Shown in pieces: positions 11,414-13,871 of a stretch of 47,039 nt of DNA. Positions within the stretch are counted from its first letter, which is position 1; the number at the start of each line of letters is the position of its first letter. The notes below the pieces were generated by a model. The model saw only the letters and a program-made list of their open reading frames with translations. It was not told the origin of the DNA and made no database searches. The stretch comes from a virus. Both the position numbers and the translations under genes were made by a program. Location of the stretch: the IMG/VR virus record IMGVR_UViG_3300045936_000206, positions 1 through 47,039 of that record. One strand, given 5' to 3'.

Positions 11414-11568
11414 GGGCACGCCTCGATCTGGCGGGCCTCGATCCGTTGTGTCGCAGCCTGGAGGTCGTCCCAGCCGGTTTGCGCGTCGCTGGTGATGGTG
11501 AGCAGCAGGTTGACGCTGGCGGCGACCGCGGCGACCGCGATCCAGACACGGGCGAGATGGGTGCTCAC
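11410..11568 (-). CDS. Short single-pass membrane protein
   Basis: 52 residues. The GTG at 11568 overlaps the epimerase stop (GTGA); GGAG lies 8 nt before. Residues 6-26 (ARVWIAVAAVAASVNLLLTI) form one membrane span, followed by a polar DAQTGWDDLQAATQRIEA helix. Too short to assign; position rules out the main lysis cassette. Confidence 0.6.
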   Translation of the reverse strand: MSTHLARVWIAVAAVAASVNLLLTITSDAQTGWDDLQAATQRIEARQIEACP

Positions 11569-12488
11569 TCGATCATCTCCATGGCCTGCGCGGTTGGCAT
11601 CCCGTCCTCGTCCAGCAGCCTTACCCAGTCGAGGGTGCGTTCCATGCCTTCCACGAGTTCGACCTCGGGTTTCCAGCCGAGCGCTCGGACGCGTTCGGTG
11701 GAGAGGCGTTTCACGACGGTCTGGTTGGCGGGGGCTTCCATCAGTTCGATCAGCCGGTCGTGGTCTTGCACGCCGGTCATTGCGCACGCGAGCCGGGCGA
11801 TCCCGTGCATGGGCACAGCCACGTCGTCTCTGCCCACGTTGTACGCGCCTTTGCCGCGTTCGATCGCGAGGCGGGCCGCTCGAACGGTGTCCGCGATGTA
11901 GCACCAGGAGCGTTCGGCCCCGACATGCACCGGGATCGGGCGTCGGTTGAGCGCCTGCCACAGCATGTTGATGATCGCGGCCCGGCCTCGTCCGGCGGGC
12001 AGGCCGGGGCCGTAGGGCATCGAGAACCTGAGCACCACGAGGTCGTCGGGGGCGTACAGGCAGGCCACGTCCTCGCCCCAGCGTTTCGAGAGGCCGTAGA
12101 TGTTGTGCGGCAGGCCGAACGGCCCCGCATACTCGTCGCATGTCTCGTTCCCCTGGTCGCCATAGACCTCGCTTGTGGAGGCGTACACGAGCCTCGCGCC
12201 GTGGGAGGCTGTGGCTTTGGCGACTAACGCGGTCATTCCGGCGTTATCCATGATCGTGTCCGCGGGGTTGTCCTCCCCGAACAGCCTGCCGACCTTGGCT
12301 GCGAGATGAACGACGACATCGACGGGGCCGTGCAGGTCGAGCGCCGCGTCGATCACGCCGGGGATGCGCAGGTCGTCGCTGGGCACAAGGGCGTGGTCTA
12401 CGCCCACCACCTGATGCCCGTTGTTGCGTAGCTCCGCGGCGAGGTGACGGCCTATAAATCCCTTATGCCCCGTGATCAGTACGCGCAC
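11565..12488 (-). CDS. NAD-dependent sugar epimerase/dehydratase
   Basis: 307 residues, an extended short-chain dehydrogenase/reductase. Nucleotide-binding loop GHKGFIG at residues 7-13, VVHLAAKVG, active-site STSEVYG and YGLSK (YxxxK), and the late MPYGPGLPAGRGRAAIINML. Likely converts an NDP-sugar for the neighbouring glycosyltransferases. The first 13 codons use CAT, GGA, TTT and ATA, unlike the rest of the gene, and are a recoded copy of an upstream remnant at 12848-12886; the HNH gene lies between the two copies and overlaps this start by 26 nt. Confidence 0.88.
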   Translation of the reverse strand: MRVLITGHKGFIGRHLAAELRNNGHQVVGVDHALVPSDDLRIPGVIDAALDLHGPVDVVVHLAAKVGRLFGEDNPADTIMDNAGMTALVAKATASHGARLVYASTSEVYGDQGNETCDEYAGPFGLPHNIYGLSKRWGEDVACLYAPDDLVVLRFSMPYGPGLPAGRGRAAIINMLWQALNRRPIPVHVGAERSWCYIADTVRAARLAIERGKGAYNVGRDDVAVPMHGIARLACAMTGVQDHDRLIELMEAPANQTVVKRLSTERVRALGWKPEVELVEGMERTLDWVRLLDEDGMPTAQAMEMIE

Positions 12489-12834
12489 GGTGCAGTTCCA
12501 TGTGGTGTTGTCGGCAAAGCCAACGCACGTCTAGTGGTTTGGTGTAGTCGTCGTGGTGTCCCTGCACATCGTCGGGGGTGCCACACACCTCGCATGTTCC
12601 GCGCACAACTTTTCCCGCGCGGACGCCACGCGCCAGAGTGTTCTGCGCTCGATACTTCTCCGGGTCCTTGTACCTGGCTCGCTTTCCAATAGCCCGCCGC
12701 TCCTCGCGATGCGCTTCGTTCCACGCCCGTTCGTAGACGAGTCTCTTGTCGCGGTTCTCTCTCGCCCATAGCCGTTGGTATTCGCGGTTGTAGTCCTTCC
12801 GCTTCTGAGGGTCTTTGAATGGCATGGGTTTCAT
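12463..12834 (-). CDS. HNH endonuclease interrupting the epimerase gene
   Basis: 123 residues. Highly basic helical N-terminus (DYNREYQRLWARENRDKR ...) and a C-terminal nuclease site CEVCG...VQGHHDDYTKPLDVRWLC and HHMELH, with paired cysteines and HH motif. Start is ATG 12834 or 12825; no good ribosome site is visible. The gene begins 13 nt after the truncated copy of the epimerase 5' end and terminates inside the second, recoded copy. That arrangement suggests a free-standing homing gene. Confidence 0.85.
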   Translation of the reverse strand: MKPMPFKDPQKRKDYNREYQRLWARENRDKRLVYERAWNEAHREERRAIGKRARYKDPEKYRAQNTLARGVRAGKVVRGTCEVCGTPDDVQGHHDDYTKPLDVRWLCRQHHMELHRARTDHGA

Positions 12835-12847
12835 CGTACCATGCCAT

Positions 12848-12886
12848 GCCGATGAAGCCTTTGTGGCCGGTGATCAGGATCCTCAC
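12848..12886 (-). pseudogene. Remnant of epimerase gene: first 13 codons
   Basis: GTG at 12886 overlaps the stop of the preceding HNH gene in the GTGA manner typical of intact genes in this operon and encodes MRILITGHKGFIG, then runs into unrelated sequence. The functional epimerase at 12488 starts MRVLITGHKGFIG. The two stretches match at 12 of 13 residues but only 28 of 39 bases. Confidence 0.8.
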
Positions 12887-13302
12887 GCCAGCACTTTCCG
12901 TCGATCACGCAATCTCTGCGCGGCGTCTGCCCGACAGCGACGGCAGTGACGCTTCCCCCGCCACATGTAGGTGTTCGTTTCATCGAACGGGTGCCCGTGT
13001 TCGCACTCGTCTTTCGCGGCGTTCCGCGCGTTGACGGTGTCGCCAGCCAGAAGGTTCTCGCGCTGCGTGACAGCACGTAGATGAGAGAGGTTGACGCACG
13101 CACGGTTCCCGCAGATGTGGTCAATGACCATCCCATCGGGAATGGAGCCGTAGGCTCGTTCCCAAACCCAGCGGTGCGCGTAGGCGAATCCGCCATCGGC
13201 GTAGTAGGCGCCGTAGCCAGCGCCAATGAACGGTCCGTTCCAGACCCGGCAGCCGAACTCCCAGCGGCTCTTGGAAATGAAGTGCTCGTCGCTGCCGATC
13301 AT
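12883..13302 (-). CDS. HNH endonuclease
   Basis: 139 residues. ATG at 13302 overlaps the glycosyltransferase stop (ATGA) behind GGGGGGAGA. Canonical intron/phage HNH order: GCRVWNGPFIGAGYG, YAHRWVWERAYG, VIDHICGNRACVNLSHL, VTQRENLLAGDT, then a zinc-binding CEHGHPF ... HCRRC end. Probably a site-specific DNA nickase or double-strand nuclease that spreads itself between related phages. Confidence 0.88.
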   Translation of the reverse strand: MIGSDEHFISKSRWEFGCRVWNGPFIGAGYGAYYADGGFAYAHRWVWERAYGSIPDGMVIDHICGNRACVNLSHLRAVTQRENLLAGDTVNARNAAKDECEHGHPFDETNTYMWRGKRHCRRCRADAAQRLRDRRKVLA

Positions 13303-13871
13303 TCTCCCCCCATCTTGTGGTAGTACCGCACATCCGCAGAGAGCCTGCTGTCCAATCGTCCCTCTGGCGCGAAGTGATGGTAGAAGGCGTAGTTGCGTCG
13401 GACAATCGTGGGATACCCGACCTGGCGTCCTCGATGTGAGAACCACTGGTCGGTCTGGTAGTGGACCTCTAGCATCGGGCCGATCTTGTCGAACTGTTCG
13501 CGTGTGCCGAACGGGATCCGCGCGATCGTTGCCTCCTCACCCTCGTCGTGCTCGTTCGCGTCCGTACCACAGGACTGCAACGTCCCGTCTGTGTTCAGGA
13601 TCCGTGCCGCTGGCAGTTCGCCGCGGTCAGCGCTCTCGATCCCGGCCTTGTCCCAGCATGACAGGGGTTCGATGTCGTCCGCGGTGAGGTGGATGTAGCG
13701 GCCCCGGGCCTTGGCGATGCCTTCGTTCCAGGCTATGCCGCACGTTGGCTTGTCGCGGATCACGATTGGTTCCCAGTCACCGTGCGTGGTTTTCTCGTAG
13801 GCGTCGAGGCAGCGGTCGAGCCAGCCTGCCTCTTCGCGGACGCGGATCGTGGGGATGATCACGCTGATCAT
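13299..13871 (-). CDS. Family 2 glycosyltransferase
   Basis: 190 residues. GT-A start MISVIIPTIRVREEAGWLDR, then GIAWNEGIAKARGRYIHLTADDIEP (the DD pair matches a metal/nucleotide-sugar site). The C-terminal part includes YPTIVRRNYAFYHHF. First base of the ATG overlaps the previous gene's stop. With the genes at 13868, 14503 and 16356 it forms a transferase set, probably for virion or host-envelope glycan. Confidence 0.8.
   Translation of the reverse strand: MISVIIPTIRVREEAGWLDRCLDAYEKTTHGDWEPIVIRDKPTCGIAWNEGIAKARGRYIHLTADDIEPLSCWDKAGIESADRGELPAARILNTDGTLQSCGTDANEHDEGEEATIARIPFGTREQFDKIGPMLEVHYQTDQWFSHRGRQVGYPTIVRRNYAFYHHFAPEGRLDSRLSADVRYYHKMGGE

Follow-up and report, generated by a model that had tools for sequence, protein, structure and literature searches.

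Mobile elements that bring a foreign end of the gene they invade have been described in fungal mitochondria. In Glomus, endonuclease elements called mobile ORFs (mORFs) bring foreign C-termini to atp6, atp9, cox2 and nad3; the endonuclease ORF adjoins the foreign 3′ end and the native 3′ end is left beyond the ORF (PMC3630166), in line with a preliminary description of the sequence studied here, which stated that fungal mitochondrial homing elements can replace the 3′ end of a gene. In Glomus atp6 the native and foreign ends are 63.5% identical in DNA and 91% in protein, and the first mORF case is cited there as that of Allomyces macrogynus atp6 (PMC3630166). The 'introns with N-terminal duplication' of Tremella fuciformis have, at the intron's 5′ end, a fragment that resembles the following exon (PMC7315562). 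In phages, SegF, SegG and MobE of T4 are free-standing endonucleases associated with marker exclusion, and the divergent sequence that flanks them is spread by co-conversion (PMC2988022).

The process is known, then, at the 3′ ends of fungal mitochondrial genes, and the open-licence literature searched yielded no phage gene with its 5′ end replaced in this way. Here we describe a probable case of such a 5′ replacement in a stretch of 47,039 nucleotides of viral DNA (IMG/VR record IMGVR_UViG_3300045936_000206, positions 1 to 47,039), hereafter the window.

Organization of the locus

On the minus strand the genes follow each other in the order glycosyltransferase, HNH1, epimerase remnant, HNH2 and complete epimerase. 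The features are as follows, the related contig being IMG/VR 3300049734_000332 (L001/L221), in which the epimerase is uninterrupted.

13299..13871, minus strand: glycosyltransferase-like gene, 190 aa, upstream in the operon (ORF; Pfam Glycos_transf_2 slightly below cut-off)
12883..13302, minus strand: HNH1, a separate free-standing HNH gene (Pfam HNH_3, 8.6e-21; phrog_826, 5.5e-43)
12848..12886, minus strand: remnant, native epimerase codons 1-13, GTGAGGATCCTGATCACCGGCCACAAAGGCTTCATCGGC (37/39 bases as in the related contig)
12450..12847, minus strand: 398-bp insert, HNH2 plus a putatively foreign 39-bp epimerase 5′ end (delimited against the empty site of L001)
12819..12847, minus strand: 9-bp perfect inverted repeat, ATGGCATGG-N11-CCATGCCAT, beginning at the insert's first base
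12463..12834, minus strand: HNH2, small HNH-type endonuclease (phrog_2340 endonuclease, 3.8e-25)
12490..12594, minus strand: HNH2 core with CxxC, GHHDDY, LCRQHH and a final H (alignment of 36 relatives)
12450..12488, minus strand: replacement codons 1-13 of the functional epimerase, the new start, GTGCGCGTACTGATCACGGGGCATAAGGGATTTATAGGC (27/39 bases as in the related contig, against 37/39 for the remnant)
11565..12488, minus strand: complete NAD-dependent epimerase/dehydratase (SDR), 307 aa (Pfam Epimerase, 4e-38; phrog_540)

The TAA stop codon of HNH2 lies within the new epimerase start, and the two genes overlap by 26 bases. HNH1, which the preliminary description leaves unmentioned, is of the HNH_3 type and unrelated to HNH2; it sits exactly between the glycosyltransferase stop, with which it has an ATGA overlap, and the native epimerase start, with which it has a GTGA overlap. 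Two endonuclease genes have thus settled at one gene start, within about 850 bases.

As in the Glomus mORFs, an endonuclease gene stands beside an apparently foreign version of one end of its target, with the native end stranded on the opposite side, the two ends show low DNA but high protein identity, and an element-free gene is present in a close relative. Native and divergent copies flank the endonuclease, and the site is occupied sporadically, being empty in the related contig. However, the mORFs replace a 3′ end, in mitochondria, and carry a LAGLIDADG ORF in atp6, whereas the present locus belongs to a phage, has an HNH gene and concerns a 5′ end. The Tremella fuciformis elements likewise carry a fragment homologous to the host gene and lead to partial gene replacement (PMC7315562), but they are mitochondrial and, despite their name, we read the geometry described there as replacement of the 3′ end. 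The T4 systems are similar in that a free-standing phage endonuclease adjoins its target gene, divergent sequence is co-converted and start-site hairpins are known; they differ in that the endonuclease gene lies between genes and cleavage occurs hundreds to thousands of bases away, usually far, nor is a leftover copy of the target's end described for them (PMC2988022). In phage Aeh1, mobE is likewise an HNH gene inserted within a coding region, that of nrdA (PMC2988022).

Two copies of the epimerase 5′ end

The first thirteen epimerase codons were said to stand on both sides of HNH2, in copies agreeing in 12 of 13 residues but only 28 of 39 bases, and both statements hold: the copies are at 12886-12848 and 12488-12450 on the minus strand and encode M-R-I/V-L-I-T-G-H-K-G-F-I-G. 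Apart from the start codon, nine of 12 codons differ, and in register no exact match exceeds 8 bp. When the peptide RVLITGHKGFIG was searched in all six frames of the window, these two copies scored best (63 and 62, the next match reaching 32), and the flank-pair score at this locus is 68, where mismatched flank pairs from about 90 HNH2-family loci have a median of 29. An artificial join made during metagenomic assembly might be suspected, given that the arrangement comes from a single IMG/VR virus record and a single assembly. However, at most 8 in-register exact bases are common to the copies, too short for the usual assembly join, and on either side the reading frames and overlaps are undisturbed, which makes such a chimera very improbable.

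The empty site in relatives

It had been predicted that a relative lacking the HNH gene would have a remnant-type 5′ end running straight into codon 14, and the related contig (44.7 kb; 80% protein identity) is such a relative. It is collinear with the window over two glycosyltransferases, the epimerase, a small conserved gene and the portal; the glycosyltransferase ortholog is at the equivalent place (4432-5004 in L001), its stop overlaps the epimerase GTGA, and neither HNH1 nor HNH2 is present at this site. Of the first 39 bases of its epimerase, 37 are those of the remnant and 27 those of the window's functional start; from codon 14 on, the window's epimerase is 75.8% identical to L221 in nucleotides. 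Another, short contig (L002/L222) matches L001/L221 exactly here. Against this empty site the insert boundary falls at AAAGGCTTCATCGGC|AGCCACCTC, with an ambiguity caused by the common GGC. Since the 5′ end of the relative is remnant-like and continues into codon 14, the remnant is the native 5′ end and the functional start the newcomer, with the junction after codon 13.

The same comparison bears on the possibility that two complete adjacent epimerases once flanked HNH2 and that most of the first was deleted, a history in which a 5′ remnant would likewise be expected on the upstream side of HNH2. Two complete epimerases side by side, which the preliminary description had named as the case against replacement, were not seen: about 40 orthologs have a single epimerase 5′ end each, and no repeated 5′ end was found upstream of the epimerase start in any of them, down to 47% identity. 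Moreover, the gene is native from codon 14 onward and its 5′ end is not, a hybrid that deletion alone leaves unexplained, and we consider a deletion scar highly unlikely.

Removal of 12847-12450 would restore the native reading frame, so HNH2 could in principle lie in a splicing intron or a bypassed segment, native codon 13 being joined to codon 14 and the second start being incidental. No group I or II intron matched an Rfam intron model in 12300-13400 at thresholds up to E = 5, and an in-frame second start with 12 of 13 matching residues would have no role under such a scheme, which is the least probable of the readings considered here.

Age and origin of the new start

Among codons for residues identical to those of L221, 1 of 11 differs in the remnant, compared with 8 of 10 in the new start and 101 of 220 elsewhere in the gene, and the remnant's rate of codon change is below that of the gene body (p = 0.012). 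The remnant being nearly unchanged, the insertion would be recent relative to the split from L221 and the new start would have been divergent already when it arrived, on the assumption that the remnant has not been kept by some other selection.

These counts are also the chief argument against the idea that HNH2 was inserted with a tandem copy of the native 5′ end and that the downstream copy later changed synonymously. Both copies do encode nearly the same peptide, the variable HK residues included, and in the gene body itself 46% of the codons for residues shared with L221 are different, as gradual drift would have it. It is the stranded copy, however, with no obvious coding constraint, that is the conserved one (1/11 versus 8/10, p = 0.002), and it changed at less than the body rate; for drift to account for the pair, 9 of 12 codons must have been altered in the functional copy and hardly any in the remnant. 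Duplication followed by drift appears unlikely.

The A/T-ending codons of the new start are, as had been noted, rare elsewhere in the gene, the remainder of which contains no TTT, no ATA, two GGA and three CAT. Third-position GC falls from 92% in the remnant and 85% (251/294) in the gene body to 66% in HNH2 and 58% (7/12) in the new start. By this measure the new start can be told from the gene body (Fisher p = 0.026) but not from HNH2 (p = 0.54). With so few codons (12), these composition tests are weak, and 16-19% of 12-codon windows in the long ORFs of the window, a set that includes some spurious frames, are equally unusual. The unusual codon use of the new start is real but modest.

The 5′ end had been described as recoded, a word that suggests design. 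Its composition matches HNH2 and similar natural starts exist, so that the best reading of the new start is a natural, unexceptional allele from a foreign epimerase, carried along with the endonuclease gene; purpose-made recoding was rejected in favour of this reading. The similar starts are in SDR genes of unrelated phages of lower GC and match at 31 (L156), 30 (L211) and 29 (L287) of 39 bases; an HNH gene was not seen directly upstream of any of the three. The closest natural alleles thus stop at 31/39, over 13 codons that are too few for a phylogeny. The simplest reading is a single source for HNH2 and the new start, a phage whose HNH2 gene overlapped a divergent epimerase at its start.

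Searches for the donor and for further cases

In IMG/VR an exact 23-mer of the new start had no matches, and a relaxed pattern of it recovered one unrelated phage SDR without an HNH gene upstream. HNH2 had only a partial match among the GTDB species genomes, in a Paceibacterota MAG, and the DNA search of INPHARED returned only a short match to HNH1. No donor allele and no second copy of the element was found in these three collections; the nearest relative of HNH2 is 46% identical and sits at another locus.

A scan of about 90 HNH2-family loci for a gene end repeated across the HNH gene gave no convincing second case, nor did its extension to 108 HNH1/HNH2-family loci with duplicates removed. 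The other high scorers in the scan were HNH tandem copies or low-complexity frames and were rejected. Among the matches listed for viral contigs encoding GHKGFIG (at least 120 stretches, about 90 loci examined), none had the arrangement of a remnant and an HNH gene. In the collections searched, then, the arrangement is known from one locus in one metagenomic virus record. Another locus (L092, around 1660-2480) has the HNH2-family core motif twice in tandem.

A model for the insertion

The insertion point lies within the motif GxxGxxG by which the epimerase binds NAD, in the codons for GFIG. Conserved sites of this kind are what homing endonucleases use as targets. At the GFIG site 30 of 36 orthologs have TTCATCGG, and the new start has TTTATAGG. 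We propose that HNH2, as a free-standing homing endonuclease, invaded the epimerase at codon 13 within the GxxGxxG codons, and that it arrived as a 398-bp segment ending downstream in codons 1-13 of an epimerase allele that was foreign and divergent. The left end of the break would have kept native codons 1-13, which became the stranded remnant, and the right side would have been joined at codon 13/14, giving a hybrid gene with a foreign 5′ end and a native body. Whereas Aeh1 nrdA is left in pieces by mobE, the gene here would be restored by its replacement 5′ end.

We give this account as a whole, a homing insertion of HNH2 that brought a foreign 5′ end and restored the gene as a hybrid, a probability of roughly three in four. 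The sequence itself shows how the locus is built, which start replaced the other, a relative in which the site is empty, and a new start already divergent on arrival. That HNH2 is active, cuts the native GFIG region and was moved by break repair we infer. Had the element carried the gene's own 5′ end, the right junction would have rebuilt the target across codons 13/14; the divergent TTTATAGG would avoid that, and it is plausible that the new start cannot be cleaved by HNH2.

A bolder reading is that the 398-bp unit acts in phages as a natural, mobile home-and-rescue cassette, homing into the conserved GxxGxxG codons near the beginning of SDR genes and restoring each with a resistant 5′ end, and this we regard as possible but doubtful. 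Synthetic home-and-rescue gene drives also join a nuclease to a recoded piece that restores the cut gene, but they are engineered and CRISPR-based, and the analogy is one of logic only (PMC7968924). If the replacement account is right, a phage endonuclease gene could invade a conserved coding site without an intron or intein by supplying the part that it displaces. This would be a route to phage genes that are mosaic on the scale of codons, with the remnant and the hybrid gene left as a readable record of the native sequence.

The HNH2 nuclease and the left edge of the insert

The HNH2 start codon is the ATG at 12834 or that at 12825. In 36 relatives C79, H91, H92, Y95, P98, V101, W103, C105 and H109 are invariant, and C82, D94, H108 and H113 are kept in at least 90%; HNH2 is without the N-terminal Cys4 stretch found in many of its relatives. 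No Pfam HNH model was reached. The AlphaFold2 model is confident (pLDDT 95.5) and has a predicted fold of four helices followed by two strands and a helix at the CxxC, GHHDDY and LCRQHH region. Among solved structures none matched significantly by sequence and none by fold below E = 1, the weak fold matches including HNH nucleases. HNH2 has the conserved catalytic and zinc residues of an HNH-type nuclease, and since there is no significant solved relative, its predicted nuclease role is drawn from motif and family.

The inverted repeat at 12847-12819 covers both candidate HNH2 start codons (z = -2.38; 5 of 200 shuffles fold as well). Since several T4 homing endonucleases are controlled by hairpins over their start sites (PMC2988022), translational control of HNH2 by this hairpin is possible. 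At the left edge of the insert, 12859-12819 on the minus strand contains two overlapping inverted repeats that could form mutually exclusive hairpins, one of which pairs GGCTTCATCG of the remnant with CGATGAAACC of the insert at 9 of 10 positions. The frame of the remnant stays open for 136 codons across HNH2, out of frame with it (12886-12476, minus strand), which GC-rich DNA may produce by chance or which may reflect translational coupling to HNH2. Elsewhere in the window, an ORF at 16321-15587 on the minus strand contains a threonine/proline/glutamate repeat tract (TTPTETTPTET...).
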